Assembly: GCA_019234815.1 (NCBI GenBank)
Contig: JAFALA010000016.1
Span: 1-54,428 of the forward strand
DNA from: Burkholderiaceae bacterium
GTDB taxonomy: Bacteria; Pseudomonadota; Gammaproteobacteria; Burkholderiales; Burkholderiaceae_C
Length of the DNA stretch: 54,428 bases
Direction: 5' to 3'
This document shows positions 1 to 11,305 of the stretch, one piece after another (within the stretch, counting starts at the first letter, position 1; each line of letters starts with the position of its first letter). The position numbers and the translations under genes were made by a program. The notes under the pieces are model-generated. The model did no database searches and was not told the origin of the DNA. It saw only the letters and a list, made by a program, of their open reading frames with translations.

Positions 1-147
1 TCGGCCATGAACGAGATTGAGTGACTGGCGGGAAAGGTAGCGTGCCGCTGCGCGACCTGAACGCGAGATTCAAATCAGACGGCTAAGCATGTAGAACTGC
101 CTGGTGATGGCTTACGGACGCGGGTTCAATTCCCGCCGGCTCCACCA
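1..147 (+). ncRNA. ssrA: tmRNA (ssrA), 3' part
   Basis: The window opens inside the transfer-messenger RNA gene, which rescues stalled ribosomes. The 3' end has the T-arm CGGGTTCAATTCCCG and an encoded acceptor end GGCTCCACCA ending at 147. Upstream, GGCTAAGCATGTAGAACTGCC at 81-101 matches the segment before the acceptor half of bacterial tmRNAs. There is no room for the D-arm and anticodon arm of an ordinary tRNA. The 5' half and the tag reading frame lie outside the window. An integrase follows directly, as is common because tmRNA 3' ends are frequent integration targets. Confidence 0.88.
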
Positions 148-230: not shown

Positions 231-323
231 CCGGGTAAGAGCACTTGCAGCCATCAATCGACCGGGTAACATACCGGGTAACTGGCCTCTGAGGCTGTTA
301 CCCAACGTGGAGTTACCCGGTAT
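231..323. promoter_or_regulatory. Repeat cluster before the integrase (arm-type or operator sites)
   Basis: The motif ACCGGGTAAC occurs at 261-270 and 273-282, with a partial copy CCGGGTAA at 231-238. It recurs inverted as GTTACCC at 297-303 and GTTACCCGGT at 312-321. The 12-mer ATACCGGGTAAC (271-282) is exactly the reverse complement of GTTACCCGGTAT (312-323), which overlaps the integrase start codon. Between the tmRNA 3' end and an integrase gene, such clustered sites suit integrase arm-type binding or autorepression. The role is inferred from position only. Confidence 0.6.
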
Positions 324-1620
324 GGCTGCAAGCGACAAGCTCACGGACAAGGCGATCAAGGCTGCGATCAAGGCCGCCACTGAGGCGGGCAAGGCTCGCA
401 AGATCAATGACGGCAATGGCCTCGTTCTTGAGGCGCGGCCGACAGGTGTCGGCTGGTGGCGCTTTCGCTATTGGCTGGATAGCCGTGAGGGGATGCTGAG
501 TCTTGGCGTTTACCCTGATGTTGGATTGAAAGACGCCCGGGAGCGTCGCGACGACGCGAAGCGCCAAGTCGCAGCTGGCCAAGACCCGAGCACCGAGCGC
601 AAGGTGGCGAAGGCTGCGCGCGTGGCGCGGGCAGCGGTCGATCGGTTGGTGGACGAGGGCAAGCCCGTACCGGGCACGTTCGAGCACACGGCGCGTGAAT
701 GGCTGACGACGGTGCATCAGGCCAAGGTCAGTGCCGGCCACGCTGACCGGACGCGCATTCGCCTTGAGCAAGATGCTTTCCCATGGATTGGTCGTCGGCC
801 CATTGGCGAAATCCAGGGACCAGAGTTGCTGGCAATGCTGCGTCGGATAGAGGCCCGCGGCGCGATTGAAACCGCGCACCGACTCAAGGACTCCTGCGGA
901 CAGGTCTTCCGCTATGGCGTGGCGTGTGGTTTGTGTGAGCGAAACCCTGCTGCTGATCTTCGCGACGCACTGCAGCCGGTCCTGTCCCGCCATCACGCGG
1001 CCATCATCGAACCCAAGCAGGCCGGGAAGCTGCTGCGTGACATCGAAGAATACCAAGGGCACCCGATCACTAGGGCGGCTTTAAGACTGTCAGCAATGCT
1101 GTTGTTGCGGCCGGGCGAGTTGCGGCACATGGAGTGGGCTTGGATCGGTACCGAGAATGCGATGCTCACAGTGCCGGCCACGGCAATGAAACGCACCAGG
1201 GCAGGCAAGGAGTCCGGCGCACCGCACATGGTGCCCCTGGCCGCGCAGGCTTTGGTGGTGCTGAGCCAACTGCGCCAGATCACCGGAACCGGCCGCTATG
1301 TTTTTCCCGCACTTACGAGTAAGACACGGTGCATGTCCGAAAATACTGTACGCAGTGCCTTGCGTCGGATGGGCTATGCCAACGACGAGATGACTGCACA
1401 TGGCTTCCGAGCGATGGCGCGCACGATGGCCGCCGAACGACTAGGCGTAGCGCCCGAGGTCATTGAGGCGCAACTTGCTCATGCTGTATCCGATGCCCTG
1501 GGTCGAGCTTACAACCGTACCCAGTTCCTGGAGCAGCGGCGCGACCTTATGCAGCAGTGGGCTGATTATCTAGACCGGCTGCGCGATGGTGCGCAAGTCA
1601 TTGAGTTCCGCAGCGCCTGA
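322..1620 (+). CDS. Tyrosine site-specific integrase
   Basis: A 432-aa P4/phage-type tyrosine recombinase that would integrate the island at the 3' end of ssrA. The N-terminus (KLTDKAIKAA, then GWWRFRYW and LSLGVYPDVGLKDAR) is the arm-binding domain of this family. The central region (EHTAREWL onwards) is the core-binding domain. The C-terminal catalytic domain shows LLRPGELRHMEW with the first Arg, MTAHGFRAMARTMA with the His-x-x-Arg box, and QLAHAVSDALGRAYNRTQF with the second His and the catalytic Tyr. The ATG at 322 is chosen over a GTG at 307 because GGAG lies 9 bases upstream and the family starts here. No excisionase gene is visible. Confidence 0.93.
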   Translation: MAASDKLTDKAIKAAIKAATEAGKARKINDGNGLVLEARPTGVGWWRFRYWLDSREGMLSLGVYPDVGLKDARERRDDAKRQVAAGQDPSTERKVAKAARVARAAVDRLVDEGKPVPGTFEHTAREWLTTVHQAKVSAGHADRTRIRLEQDAFPWIGRRPIGEIQGPELLAMLRRIEARGAIETAHRLKDSCGQVFRYGVACGLCERNPAADLRDALQPVLSRHHAAIIEPKQAGKLLRDIEEYQGHPITRAALRLSAMLLLRPGELRHMEWAWIGTENAMLTVPATAMKRTRAGKESGAPHMVPLAAQALVVLSQLRQITGTGRYVFPALTSKTRCMSENTVRSALRRMGYANDEMTAHGFRAMARTMAAERLGVAPEVIEAQLAHAVSDALGRAYNRTQFLEQRRDLMQQWADYLDRLRDGAQVIEFRSA

Positions 1621-1748
1621 TACGGCAATAGTCATCCCCTCCACCCGGTCCGCTAGTACTCGCTGGAAAATGCAGAATGCGCTACAGCCGGAAATGACCC
1701 TGAGCGGACATTGGCAGGCTTTACTGGGGCATGCCGAATTGTTGATAT

Positions 1749-3077
1749 TTAGAGACGCGCACGTATCCACCGATCAATGTGACCGAATGTGCGGAGATCG
1801 TCATATATTAGGGAATGCCGTAGAGGGATGGAATTCCCAGTTGCCCATTTGCCGGAATCTTCCGTCGCGCTTAGCTGTACCACAGTCCATTCGCCCGAAG
1901 GGACGGTTTCGATAGAAAAATGAATGAATAGCGCAAGAGGAGATAGGCGTCCAAATGAAATTCCACTAAATACGCCGAATATAAGGCTTAATACACCAAT
2001 AAATATTGTTAAAGCACCAATGCTGTAGAGAATCATGAGCCATAAATTCCTGATTTCTTTAAATGTTGAGGCGCCAATCCACTCGATTGCATTTACGGCT
2101 GGGGTTTCGAGTCCGCACACACGAAACCCATAGCAGGCAGTTGCGGATATGGCAAACCAAATCAAAACAGATGTTAGCAAAAGTATTTGTGGTTTAACTA
2201 TTCCTCGAATTAATTGCCTCAAACAACTAATTATTTTGCTTGGCCCTCCTTTGTGATTATTTAATTTCAAAATGTGGAGTACTTGAAGGGTACGTAAGAT
2301 AAATCTAGAAAACCTTTCGACGATGGTTCCGATGAAGTGTGCAAAATTTAGTGCGGATCCAGCCTCATCTCCATCCATTCTTAGGAATAGGCATTTAGTT
2401 TGGTCCAAATTAGGGAATTCGTATTTATGGACAAACTTACAGATTTCGGCATTTAATTCTTGTTCCGGTCGATCAACTTGCTTGGCAAGTCGCCAAAACA
2501 CCACTCCAATAATTAAAAGGATAGTGCATATTTCTATCGCCAAGTCAGAGTCTTCAGGCCATGAATGTGTCTTAATTAGATCGGGGACAAATAGAGCGCT
2601 AAATAGTATTAGGAAGTATGAGCTTATGAGCATTAAGAAGGCGCCACCCTCTCGCATCGATTTTATCATTATTGACGCAACCGCGGTTGGAATGGCCTTA
2701 ATAAACGGTGTCGACATAAATATGGCGCCGTCAACGAATGAGTGAATGGCGGGGTTTTGTTGTAACGCCATTGCGGAGACCGTGCCTCCGTGACTGTGGC
2801 TAATAATAAATCGACGTCGATTAGGGAATTTTTCAGCAAGATTAAAAATAATTGCACTTAAAGATGCGGCAGCCTTTTGTCTTGATTCGTGACTATTATT
2901 TCCAGACCATTTGTATTGAATGAATGTAATGTCGGATTGTATTTGATTTAATAGATTGCGGCACAGCAATGATATATCTGGATTAGTCCAATTCGCGCCA
3001 GTGGCCCATGTGCCATGTACAAGGATGATGTCAATGCCATTCTTTTCTTTGATTTGATTTGTGTCTTTTTTGTCCAT
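1749..3077 (-). CDS. Membrane-embedded alpha/beta hydrolase, island cargo
   Basis: A 442-aa protein of unknown function. The N-terminal half is an alpha/beta hydrolase: the oxyanion segment VHGTWA (20-25), a YKWSGNNSHESR block typical of a poorly studied hydrolase group, and the nucleophile elbow SHSHGG with Ser95. Hydrophobic segments lie near 147-167, 182-197, 297-316 and 346-373. The candidate acid (Asp235 or Asp237 in MDGDEAG) and candidate His421 are separated by the last two segments, so the hydrolase domain seems to carry a membrane insertion. The ATG at 3077 follows GGGAG at good spacing; a TTG 14 codons upstream is less likely. The gene is much richer in A+T than its surroundings, a sign of transfer. 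A membrane lipase or toxin-like effector is possible but unproven. Confidence 0.72.
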   Translation of the reverse strand: MDKKDTNQIKEKNGIDIILVHGTWATGANWTNPDISLLCRNLLNQIQSDITFIQYKWSGNNSHESRQKAAASLSAIIFNLAEKFPNRRRFIISHSHGGTVSAMALQQNPAIHSFVDGAIFMSTPFIKAIPTAVASIMIKSMREGGAFLMLISSYFLILFSALFVPDLIKTHSWPEDSDLAIEICTILLIIGVVFWRLAKQVDRPEQELNAEICKFVHKYEFPNLDQTKCLFLRMDGDEAGSALNFAHFIGTIVERFSRFILRTLQVLHILKLNNHKGGPSKIISCLRQLIRGIVKPQILLLTSVLIWFAISATACYGFRVCGLETPAVNAIEWIGASTFKEIRNLWLMILYSIGALTIFIGVLSLIFGVFSGISFGRLSPLALFIHFSIETVPSGEWTVVQLSATEDSGKWATGNSIPLRHSLIYDDLRTFGHIDRWIRARL

Positions 3078-3317
3078 GCTGTAATTTCTCCCAAAATTAC
3101 CTAGACCAAACAAATTCAAACGATATTGCCACAGTTTTCAATTTCAAATACCATTGAACTGATTTTCTTTCCCTGGAAATAAGGATGAATCATAGGGGTT
3201 AGAAAGATTTTCATCAATTAAATGGCCATTTCGTGGTTTTAAGTGACCTTCAACTTAGATGTGAAATTCATTGACGAGAGAAAACTTTTACTTGCTCTCA
3301 ATGAAAAGGACCTAAGC

Positions 3318-4529
3318 CTACTTCACTCGAACATCTTGATTCAGAGAGACATGAGGAGGTTTTCCGTGCGTCCGGATTACTTGCCAACCGTTCCATCTTA
3401 CGTTGTTGAGATCTAAGTCTTGCTCCGCAATGCACATTAATGTCTGAAATTGATTCAGTGGATCGAGTAAGTGATGAGAGTAGAAGTCAAAGAAACCGTC
3501 GAAAATGACTGACACTGATTCATCGAGAATAAGGAGTGTGGGGCAGTATTTTCCAGACAGTCGGGCGGCCGCAGTCGAAAACTCAAGTAGTATTCTCTCC
3601 TTTTCGCGGCCACTTAGGTTTCGGAGCGGTAATCCTGGAGCGGTACCTTGCACGTCTGTAATTAGGGTGTATTGTTCAATATAATTCCCATCGCCATTGG
3701 TATTCAACTCGAGTCGCAGGTTCTGCACTTTGGCATGGGGAAACTGATTTACTTCGTCAATGAGTGAGTTAATAGCAGGCGCCGGCACGTTGAGAGCCTG
3801 CGCAAGCATTTCAGCATCATCAGTGATTGAATAATCAAAACGGCGAGGCTTGAATATCGCAAACCCAATTGGTACAAAAGCTACTGATTTTCCATCTATC
3901 GAATATTTTACCTCAGAGTTTCTAGCCGTCATCTCGAGATTTTGAAGCTTTGGATTTAGCAGTGATAGACGTAATTTGATGGGGTTGTGCTCGGCCGGCA
4001 TCCAGCGATCTAGCTTTGTGCAATCAAAAAGGCTGTTGATCCATTCCACAATTGCCGTCTTGCCAGTGCTGTTCGCTCCATAGATAAGGTTTAGTTTTGA
4101 AAACTGGAACGTCTGTGGCGCAGCAAACAATGGGCTTTGAACAATAGTAAGTTCATGAAGCCAACCAATCGGTGGATACAATCCTTCATGCTCAAGCGAT
4201 ACTCGAGCTTCATGGAGTGCTTTGTAACTAAGTAGCACCTCGGGCGGATACTTAACTCCACCGTTGTTGTCTACTATCTTGGCATGTCGCCCACATAACC
4301 AAATTCCGTTTCCCGGACTCTTAAGTTCAGCAGAGGTGAGCTTCCCTTGTCCCCTTGGACCACCCTTTGACGCGGAGTAGATGTGAGCAGCATAACCACT
4401 ATTCGAGACAAAATTAGTGTTGTGGCCCGGACCGCTTGTCCTTTGATTGCATGTGGGAAAACTGCATTGATGACCCGCGCTGGCGGCAATTAGCTCGCGG
4501 ACTTTTGGAGTGAAATTCTCGCGGGGCAT
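3318..4529 (-). CDS. HNH nuclease / ABC-type ATPase fusion, candidate defence protein
   Basis: A 403-aa two-domain protein. Residues 1-116 form an HNH-like module: C22 and C27 (CSFPTC), AAH49, GGPRG, then N74-GIWLC79 and H82 with D87, followed by the usual K-x-x-HE tail. Residues about 125-403 form a compact ABC/SMC-like ATPase: Walker A GANSTGKT (151-158), signature LSGREKERI (305-313) and Walker B TLLILDES (331-338) with D336 and E337. No H-loop His is evident and the usual long coiled-coil insert is missing. Septu-type defence uses a separate ATPase (PtuA) and HNH protein (PtuB); here similar activities share one chain in the reverse order. The start at 4529 is where the HNH family normally begins; the Shine-Dalgarno is weak. 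Function is inferred. Confidence 0.75.
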   Translation of the reverse strand: MPRENFTPKVRELIAASAGHQCSFPTCNQRTSGPGHNTNFVSNSGYAAHIYSASKGGPRGQGKLTSAELKSPGNGIWLCGRHAKIVDNNGGVKYPPEVLLSYKALHEARVSLEHEGLYPPIGWLHELTIVQSPLFAAPQTFQFSKLNLIYGANSTGKTAIVEWINSLFDCTKLDRWMPAEHNPIKLRLSLLNPKLQNLEMTARNSEVKYSIDGKSVAFVPIGFAIFKPRRFDYSITDDAEMLAQALNVPAPAINSLIDEVNQFPHAKVQNLRLELNTNGDGNYIEQYTLITDVQGTAPGLPLRNLSGREKERILLEFSTAAARLSGKYCPTLLILDESVSVIFDGFFDFYSHHLLDPLNQFQTLMCIAEQDLDLNNVRWNGWQVIRTHGKPPHVSLNQDVRVK

Positions 4530-4867
4530 GTTGATAGGTGTGCTCAGGTAAGCATAATGTGTTACGGGGAGGCAGGTGATGCCGATTAACATCAGAGCTG
4601 GCGTCCCAGCCTTTCTGATTGCGATTGCGGCACATCGACCTGGAGCGACCACTTGTATCGCTGGAGATACCGCTTGCCAGCGACCGCATAACGTGGAGGG
4701 GCCCGGCAGCTTGCGGTATACAGCGGCACGATGCAGGAATCCCAACGGCACTGTACGGCGCCTTGCCGCAATGAGCCCAATTCGACCGATCTGCTATTCA
4801 TCTTCAGCTTGAGCACCATACTTCTTCTCCACGTCCCTGTCCGCGCCGATCGACGCAGGGTGGATGC
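4530..4867. other. Gene-free stretch at the right edge of the island
   Basis: These 338 bases lie between the fusion gene and the flavoprotein gene. GC content returns to chromosomal level here, so the island's right boundary is probably inside. No second copy of the tmRNA 3' end (the expected attachment-site duplicate) and no convincing gene, promoter or terminator could be seen. Confidence 0.5.
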
Positions 4868-9331: not shown

Positions 9332-11305
9332 TCAGCTGCTCATGCCCAGCACGGTCACCAGCATGGCCAGCAGGGCCTTGACGACCGATTCCCCGGCGAT
9401 CAGGCCAGAGGCGATGGAGACGCTGAACTCCTCCTGGCTGCGCTTGTGCAGGCGGCCCCACAGCGCGACCAGCAGCGCGCCGATGGCGAACGAGAAGGTG
9501 TTGCTGAACACGACCACCCATCCCAGGCCCAGGCCCATGGCCGAGGGCAGATAGGGCCGCGCCTTGGGGTACAGGCTCTCGAGCAGGGGCAGCACCACGC
9601 CAACCAGCGCGCCGATCAGGATGGCGATGCGCGCGCTCATGGGCAGGCTTTCGACGCCCGCCGACAGCAGCCGTGCCACGGCCACCCAGGTCTGGGTGGC
9701 GGGCAGCGGATACTTTTCCAGCGCATCGATATTGGGCACCATCAGGTACCAGGCGGGCACCACGGCTAAGGTGCCGAAGAAGACGCCGGTGAATTGCGCC
9801 AGGAACTGCTTGCGCGGGTTTGCGCCGAGCAAATAGCCGCTCTTCAAATCGGTCAGCAAGTCGGCCGAGGAGGTTGCCGCGTTGGCGCCGACGCCGGCGG
9901 CTGCCAGGTTGTGCGTGGCGTTGCCCGGCGAGACCACCGCGAACACCAACTGCATCACCTTGCCCATGGCGCCGATCGGGGTGATATCGGTTTCCCCCGT
10001 GGCGCGGCTGGCCACCATGGCCAGCACGAAGGACATGCCCACGGCAATCGCGCCAGCCCACCAGTGCACCCGGAAGGCGAGGTACTGGATCGCCACCAGC
10101 GCGATGGCCACGGGCACGACGCCGACCAGGAACCAGGTCCGCGGCACCTCGATGGCATTCATACGGGCCGCCAGGGTCCAGTCCTGCGCGCTGCCTGCCG
10201 GTTCAGCGGGCGTGTCGGAGCGTCCGACTTGCCGCAGCAACTTGAACGAGCGCGCCACGGTGCGCCATTGCAGTGCCAGCGAGCTGAAGCTTGCAAACAC
10301 CATCATGGCGGTGCCGCCCCACAGGGCCCAGCGCACGGGCTGGAATATCATGCCGCCGCCGACCAAGGGGATGGACGCCAGGTAGCCGGGCTCGCTGGCG
10401 TGCAAGGCGTCGATGCTCTGCAGCCAGGGTGTCAGTCCGAAGTAGAGCAGCGCGGAGGCCGCGAACATGGACAGCGACACCTTCAGGCCCACGATCATGC
10501 CGGCGGCGATCAGCAGCCCGCTGGGTTCGAATCCGAAGTTCATCAAGGGCTTGCCCGACACCAGCATGAAGCCCTGCTCCGGGACCAGGTCGGGCAGATG
10601 GATGTTGAACACCTTCTGCCGCATCCAGGCGAAGAAGCGACCCAGCGCGACAAACTGATCTTCCGCCGTGTTGAGCACGCCGATGATGCCGCCCGTCACC
10701 ATCGCGGCCAGCAGCGAATAGGCCTTGCGCAGCGTGGCGGCGTCGTGCTTGTAGAGGCTGGTCAGCGTTTGCGCTGCGGCAATGCCGGAGGGGAAGGGCA
10801 GTTGCTCCCGGTTGATCAATTGCCGCTTCATCGGGATGGCGATCAGGGTGCCCATCAGGCCGGTCGCCAGCGTGAAGGCCGCGACCAGCGGCCAGGCCAC
10901 ATGGCGGTGCATGGGATCCAGGATCAGCAGGGCGCCGAAGCTGGTGGCGATGGTGTTGCCGGTGGAGTAGCCGGCGGCCGACGCCGTCGACTGCATGCAG
11001 TTGTTCTCCAGGATGGACATGGGCCCGACCCGGTGCCCGGACAGGGCCCGCACCGCATTCCAGATGACGAAGGACAGCACGCAGGAGGTGATGGCCACGC
11101 CGAACGACCAGCCCACCTTCATTGTGGTATAGAGGTTGGAGATGGACATCAGCCCGCCCAGCAAGGCGCCGATGAGGAGCGCGCGCCAAGTCAGCTGCGG
11201 CATCTGGTCACCCTGGTAGACCTGCGTGTACCACTGCGCATCGTGGTCGGTTTCGGACGGTTGGGATGGCGCGGCGCCGGAGGCGTGGTCGGTACGACGG
11301 GTCAT
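9332..11305 (-). CDS. OPT-family oligopeptide transporter
   Basis: A 657-aa polytopic inner-membrane protein of the OPT family, which imports oligopeptides or metal chelates with protons. The N-terminal block LTWRALLIGALLGGLMSISNLYTTMKVGWSFGVAI is characteristic of the prokaryotic OPT group. NNCMQSTASAAGYSTGN, PFPSGIAAA and GANAATSSADLLTDLKSGYLLGANPRKQF are further conserved loops. More than a dozen hydrophobic segments follow one another. The gene stands alone, divergent from msrA. The substrate cannot be assigned: prokaryotic OPTs are poorly characterised. Confidence 0.9.
   Translation of the reverse strand: MTRRTDHASGAAPSQPSETDHDAQWYTQVYQGDQMPQLTWRALLIGALLGGLMSISNLYTTMKVGWSFGVAITSCVLSFVIWNAVRALSGHRVGPMSILENNCMQSTASAAGYSTGNTIATSFGALLILDPMHRHVAWPLVAAFTLATGLMGTLIAIPMKRQLINREQLPFPSGIAAAQTLTSLYKHDAATLRKAYSLLAAMVTGGIIGVLNTAEDQFVALGRFFAWMRQKVFNIHLPDLVPEQGFMLVSGKPLMNFGFEPSGLLIAAGMIVGLKVSLSMFAASALLYFGLTPWLQSIDALHASEPGYLASIPLVGGGMIFQPVRWALWGGTAMMVFASFSSLALQWRTVARSFKLLRQVGRSDTPAEPAGSAQDWTLAARMNAIEVPRTWFLVGVVPVAIALVAIQYLAFRVHWWAGAIAVGMSFVLAMVASRATGETDITPIGAMGKVMQLVFAVVSPGNATHNLAAAGVGANAATSSADLLTDLKSGYLLGANPRKQFLAQFTGVFFGTLAVVPAWYLMVPNIDALEKYPLPATQTWVAVARLLSAGVESLPMSARIAILIGALVGVVLPLLESLYPKARPYLPSAMGLGLGWVVVFSNTFSFAIGALLVALWGRLHKRSQEEFSVSIASGLIAGESVVKALLAMLVTVLGMSS

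Follow-up and report, generated by a model that had tools for sequence, protein, structure and literature searches.

A Single Gene Joins a Cap5-Type HNH Domain to a Predicted ATP-Binding Head

The stretch analyzed here (the window; 54,428 nucleotides of a Burkholderiaceae bacterium, contig JAFALA010000016.1) carries at positions 3318–4529 one open reading frame (ORF) encoding a fusion of an HNH nuclease domain and an ABC-type ATPase head in a single chain of 403 amino acids. The gene lies on the minus strand, which the initial annotation had omitted, with its ATG start codon at 4529. That annotation had read it as a self-contained defense nuclease, an interpretation that is partly supported: the architecture is real and unusual. 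The residues that it had singled out all stand in the translation where it had placed them, namely C22, C27, H49, N74 and H82, Walker A at residues 151–158 (GANSTGKT; 4056–4079), the ABC signature at 305–309 (LSGRE; 3603–3617) and Walker B at 331–338 (TLLILDES, of which TLLILDE occupies residues 331–337; 3519–3539), all encoded on the minus strand. C22, C27, H49, N74, C79, G151, G156 and K157 are invariant among 45 aligned homologues, and given this invariance the motif residues are more than chance matches. A chimeric or otherwise artefactual contig was rejected, because the same fusion recurs in other genomes.

The HNH domain spans residues 1–118 (4176–4529, minus strand). The initial annotation had made its reading depend on this segment resembling HNH profiles, and PADLOC, for which we consider the best 25 of 49 matched families, returned matches over residues 3–112 with the HNH effector of the cyclic-oligonucleotide-based anti-phage signaling system (CBASS; E-value 5.9e-20), SAVED_HNH (5.4e-19) and PDC-M68A (2.6e-20). 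A comparison of HNH domains placed it nearest to the DNA-cutting Cap5, and its invariant histidine H49 (codon at 4383–4385, minus strand) aligns with His56 of Pseudomonas syringae Cap5. H82, which had been counted among the HNH residues, was correctly positioned but aligns with a zinc-site Cys/His; this column is occupied by Cys in 8fm1 and seven of the 82 fusions, and by Arg in one of the 82. D87 is a further invariant residue of the domain in the fusion alignment, and conservation of the main nuclease residues is unbroken across the family.

The remainder of the protein (residues 122–403; 3321–4166, minus strand) is predicted to form an SMC/Rad50/RecF-like ATP-binding head. In the AlphaFold model of the whole protein (mean predicted local distance difference test score 84.4) the nearest folds of this part were the heads of SMC, Rad50 and RecF, with GajA also in the list, and the head combines this fold with Walker A, the signature and the Walker B Asp. 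The head dominates the fold matches of the whole model, and those of the HNH domain come from a separate domain model. Pfam gave only weak AAA matches, located at Walker A and below cut-offs (AAA_13, 0.00026; AAA_23, 0.00097), and among the PADLOC families listed LmuB, GajA and PtuA matched weakly near Walker A. Two absences recorded in the initial annotation held up. The model has no coiled coil and its head no long helix pair, and none of the 45 aligned homologues has a His at 368–370, where a His at 368 was found in 7 of 37 other members. In ABC ATPases the catalytic Glu and the H-loop His drive hydrolysis, and SMC heads dimerize around ATP. The window protein keeps the Walker B Glu, which is retained in 18 of 82 members and replaced or missing in 64, and the canonical pair of Walker B Glu and H-loop His is thus not maintained across the family. 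In two fusion members (L011:659-1885 and L012:9989-11260) the Walker A Lys is replaced by Arg.

The Fusion Is Widespread but Sporadic

A search of 5.77 billion proteins yielded 139 matches at E ≤ 1e-3, the window's own protein included, and 104 of the 120 matches listed covered at least 90% of the protein. The alignment of 45 of these 139 homologues, A1, was used to scan genome contigs, which gave 159 loci, 80 of them kept. The initial annotation had suggested looking for homologues with the same fusion, and it does recur: 36 of the 80 kept genome loci encode full fusions, defined as proteins scored with both halves of A1 (L041 weakly, 1.7e-9). At L034 the fusion is interrupted by a stop. The remaining 43 genome loci carry the HNH module with other partners. 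As side observations, these fusion partners include a TPR-GreABC-PIN protein of 1218 residues (L061:9983-13639), one bearing the NACHT C-terminal domain NCAB2 (L050:9998-14389) and an nSTAND3 protein (L075:10001-12856), and the module starts the lysogenic-conversion ORF2 of phage P2-EC46 (L190:488-1594; AJ512680.1).

Among viral contigs the A1 query found one full fusion (L082) in 16 loci, and the single protein as query gave no match there. Of 140 plasmid records with a match, three span 80% or more of the protein, and none of the six matching phage records does. Within the bacterium's own family the full fusion was found in 1 of 299 sampled genomes, its own, with HNH-range matches in 16 and an ATPase-range match alone in two; within its own order it was again the only one, in 1 of 399 (E 1e-20). 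In a tree of 35 loci and the window protein, which spans 11 phyla, the window protein is placed with one Opitutales and one Thauera member (Shimodaira-Hasegawa-like approximate likelihood ratio test support 97) and then with a Terriglobia member, L004 (98), in whose class 5 of 399 sampled genomes carry the full fusion (E 1e-20). The family is wide and sporadic, and found in mobile and defense surroundings.

The Gene Lies on a Likely Mobile Island

The initial annotation had pointed to an integrase and a transfer-messenger RNA (tmRNA) gene nearby, and both are present. The 3′ end of the tmRNA gene, a presumed attachment site, occupies positions 1–147 (plus strand) at the contig edge, followed by a tyrosine-recombinase integrase at 307–1620 (plus strand; Arm-DNA-bind_3, Phage_int_M and Phage_integrase). 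An alpha/beta-hydrolase-like gene at 1749–3119 (minus strand) is a second cargo gene; as a side observation, it has partial, remote matches alone, on three plasmids. The A+T-rich composition ascribed to the island applies to part of it: G+C content is 0.448 for 1620–4800, whereas the window as a whole has 0.635 and the integrase 0.624, and therefore the A+T-rich part is the cargo and not the integrase. The fusion gene likely sits on a mobile island. The genome has a single other copy of the tmRNA end, in a full tmRNA gene (G000:C118:1-373) whose CCA coincides with the edge of contig C118 and whose last 147 nucleotides equal window positions 1–147. A contig edge within the tmRNA and the C118 copy fit a branch at the attachment site, without proving it. 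No direct repeat of the tmRNA end was found within the window, which leaves the island without a defined distal boundary.

We scanned 38 loci for partners of the fusion gene; these come from 43 stretches, of which five are second copies (L118 of L004, and L120–L123 of L016, L009, L012 and L017). Up to eight genes away from 37 loci there are 313 ORFs with 160 or more residues, and the 216 lying within five genes were compared with PADLOC in two halves. These matched 158 and 349 models at 1e-10, which are redundant, many per protein, and are not gene counts; the tool does not give the number of ORFs behind them. Among the 25 models listed per half were JetA, type I, II and III restriction-modification, prokaryotic Argonaute with SIR2, MADS, GajA, LmuB and PDC-S06. 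The control, a single genome, consisted of 43 ORFs of at least 160 amino acids from the window's own genome (31 from the window beyond 4867 and 12 from contig C118), and these matched no PADLOC model. Pfam identified Phage_integrase in 7 of the 107 first-half ORFs and in at most 1 of the 109 in the second half, and housekeeping and metabolic families were also present. Among the nearest relatives, L002 adjoins genes for a TrwC relaxase and a TrwB-like coupling protein, L003 adjoins SIR2, HNH_2 and HEPN genes, and L005 adjoins an integrase. A match on a Bacillota plasmid (93% covered, 27.8% identity) is flanked by restriction-modification genes and an integrase, and a Sphingomonas plasmid match adjoins a transposase and a HEPN gene.

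One Homologue Follows an Array of Class II tRNA Genes

At L004 (genome G299) five tRNA genes at 9495–9956 lie on the strand of the fusion gene and end 26 bp before it, at 9983. Their order is Leu(caa), Ser(gct), Ser(tga), Tyr(gta) and Leu(tag), all class II isoacceptors; four reach the Rfam gathering score, and Ser(tga) was called by ARAGORN alone. Both Leu genes are 77 nucleotides long, without the long variable arm. Rfam gives 60 tRNA matches in this genome, four of them in the array, and 11 of the 56 others, chosen mainly by length, include one ordinary copy for each of the five anticodons (85–94 nucleotides). Array and ordinary copies share 55–69 identical positions over 87–101 aligned columns, the array Leu genes being 10 and 8 nucleotides shorter. 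With at least nine class II genes among the 56, the chance of five out of five is about 1e-4, reckoned post hoc. No sigma-70-like site was found ahead of the array, and no terminator was listed between it and the fusion gene. The L004 protein itself deviates at W379 and G381, both of which are invariant in A1.

A gene for the RNA-repair protein Pnkp (PNKP_ligase; L004:11348-15307) converges on the fusion gene; its frame continues that of a transporter-like fragment located where the contig ends. A general partnership with Pnkp was rejected, since it stands beside 1 of 38 loci and occurs somewhere in 9 of 36 genomes. None of the other 37 loci scanned has a second array, four having a single tRNA gene, and none of the 43 HNH-only genome loci has one beside the gene, although L040 has seven tRNA genes about 7 kb away. 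Elsewhere, all that remains of a fusion gene resembling that of L004 is a 3′ remnant at a contig start (G1170:C68; L178:134-388), preceded by unrelated sequence; G1170 also has short tRNA-like matches.

A Putative One-Gene Anti-Phage Effector and Its Alternatives

We consider that the Cap5-type HNH domain and the predicted SMC/Rad50-like head probably form a one-gene anti-phage effector whose nuclease is released on infection. While nucleotide is bound, the head would keep the nuclease inactive; infection would alter the nucleotide-bound state, and the released nuclease would cut nucleic acid, probably DNA, leading to abortive infection. By analogy with SMC heads the head may dimerize around ATP, probably binding it more than hydrolyzing it, and it would replace the sensing and oligomerizing role that SAVED has in Cap5. 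DNA is the more likely substrate, with class II tRNA as the bold alternative.

Several observations weigh against this proposal. Because both the Walker B Glu and the H-loop His drift, the head may serve only as a scaffold, and the usual place of the third HNH His (residue 83) is taken by Ala, Gly or Ser in 81 of 82 fusions. On the window's island neither the hydrolase nor the integrase gave another PADLOC match (the integrase only mad1, at 0.024), and neither is an obligate partner: they matched none of the 38 loci at 1e-3 (0 of 38 for the hydrolase), although the same queries do recover their own genes in the window. The family PDC-M68A is itself only a candidate, and the redundancy of the PADLOC models and the one-genome control limit what the neighborhoods can tell. 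Phylum labels on the tree change 15 times (minimum 10, shuffled mean 22, none of 200 shuffles as low); they cluster, so transfer stays unproven, and the extra changes are no proof. Finally, the L004 array points to RNA and not DNA.

In the tRNA alternative, the targets of the nuclease are class II tRNAs, which have a long variable arm (Leu, Ser, Tyr); their cleavage halts translation, and relatives such as L004 carry cut-resistant spares as an antidote. The armless array Leu genes beside ordinary long-armed copies elsewhere in the genome, the convergent Pnkp gene and the position of L004 in the four-member tree group of the window protein speak for it. So does the precedent of PtuAB, which cuts tRNA-Tyr in the variable loop in retron-Eco7 and one Septu (PMC11555353, PMC13096335); the same reports describe a retron-Eco4 PtuAB that lowered no tRNA and another Septu reported to cut DNA. 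We nevertheless find it doubtful: the array occurs at one of the 38 scanned loci and beside none of the 43 HNH-only genome loci (a scan that left out 15 viral HNH-only loci), Pnkp is as rare a neighbor, and the HNH domain is nearest to a DNA-cutting enzyme. Moreover, the differences between array and host tRNAs extend over the whole molecule and not the arm alone, the L004 genome comes from a metagenome bin, and the tRNA test was conceived after seeing it. The fuller version is unlikely: it would constitute a novel immune-protein class, in which a Cap5-type nuclease aimed at class II tRNA is directly controlled by a nucleotide-occupied SMC-like head for which ATP hydrolysis is no longer necessary, with a spare Leu/Ser/Tyr tRNA antidote, its Leu members armless, ahead of the gene at some loci.

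An OLD- or Gabija-like restriction enzyme, whose head scans or clamps DNA as Rad50 or RecF does while the HNH domain cuts the invader directly without cell suicide, would suit the DNA-handling relatives of the head and the presence of GajA among its fold matches; lacking a coiled coil in the model and any TOPRIM match, and with the Walker B Glu lost in most members, which speaks against an ATP-driven machine, it seems rather unlikely. The relaxase, coupling-protein and integrase genes next to fusion members could instead indicate a maintenance gene of mobile elements, or a weapon against plasmids or rival islands rather than phages, but the HNH module is common to CBASS and STAND (signal transduction ATPases with numerous domains) proteins and phage-defense genes lie nearby, making this quite improbable. 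A housekeeping role in DNA repair or metabolism, suggested by the likeness of the head to RecF, is scarcely credible for a gene restricted to its own genome in the sampled family and order.

Comparison with Known Systems

The anti-phage effector proposed here shares its HNH domain with Cap5, the HNH-SAVED effector of CBASS, but has an SMC-like head where Cap5 has the SAVED cyclic-nucleotide sensor, and it lacks the third HNH His. Residues 122–403 match SMC/Rad50/RecF heads and not SAVED, and among the PADLOC families listed the effector matches end by residue 145. By PADLOC no cGAS/DncV-like nucleotidyltransferase gene was found among the hydrolase, the integrase and the 43 control ORFs.

In Septu and retron-Eco7 an ABC ATPase, PtuA, likewise works with an HNH nuclease, PtuB, and ATP inhibits PtuAB. 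Whereas ptuA and ptuB are separate genes, the window has one open frame, as do 36 of the 80 kept loci. PtuA likeness is confined to residues 144–196 (PADLOC, 0.0011), the Septu 8eea chain appears among the fold matches but not above SMC heads, and the HNH domain matches PtuB weakly, so that a remote kinship may exist. Septu as the parent is not favored because the HNH domain comparison points to Cap5. In Septu EcB88 both active sites are required (PMC13096335).

Gabija GajA, OLD and PARIS AriA also couple an SMC/OLD-like ATPase to a nuclease, which in these is TOPRIM, C-terminal in GajA, and not HNH; GajA is inhibited by nucleotides (PMC10440598 for both points). In the window protein TOPRIM is absent among seven Pfam families at E 1, and the head extends to the C-terminus; the coiled-coil arm of SMC and Rad50 is also missing from its model. 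The same pair of activities occurs side by side in a dyad of genes for HNH and OLD-ABC ATPases in bacteriophage exclusion (BREX) neighborhoods, described as genomically linked (PMC12839542), compared with the Cap5-type single chain here. We found no description of a Cap5-type HNH/SMC-like-head fusion in the literature passages searched, though PMC7544218 or PMC12318543 may list it.

PDC-M68A and NACHT/STAND proteins begin with the same HNH module and have other domains behind it, so that the Cap5 nuclease domain appears as a plug-in module for cyclic-nucleotide, STAND-like and SMC-like partners. If our interpretation is correct, sensor, switch and nuclease are contained in one gene of 1.2 kb, among the simplest Rad50-like immune proteins, and the protein would be well suited to studying how nucleases are kept in check by nucleotide-binding heads, a question that also concerns Septu, Gabija and OLD. 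The tRNA-array locus offers a direct and cheap way to ask whether such nucleases target tRNA.
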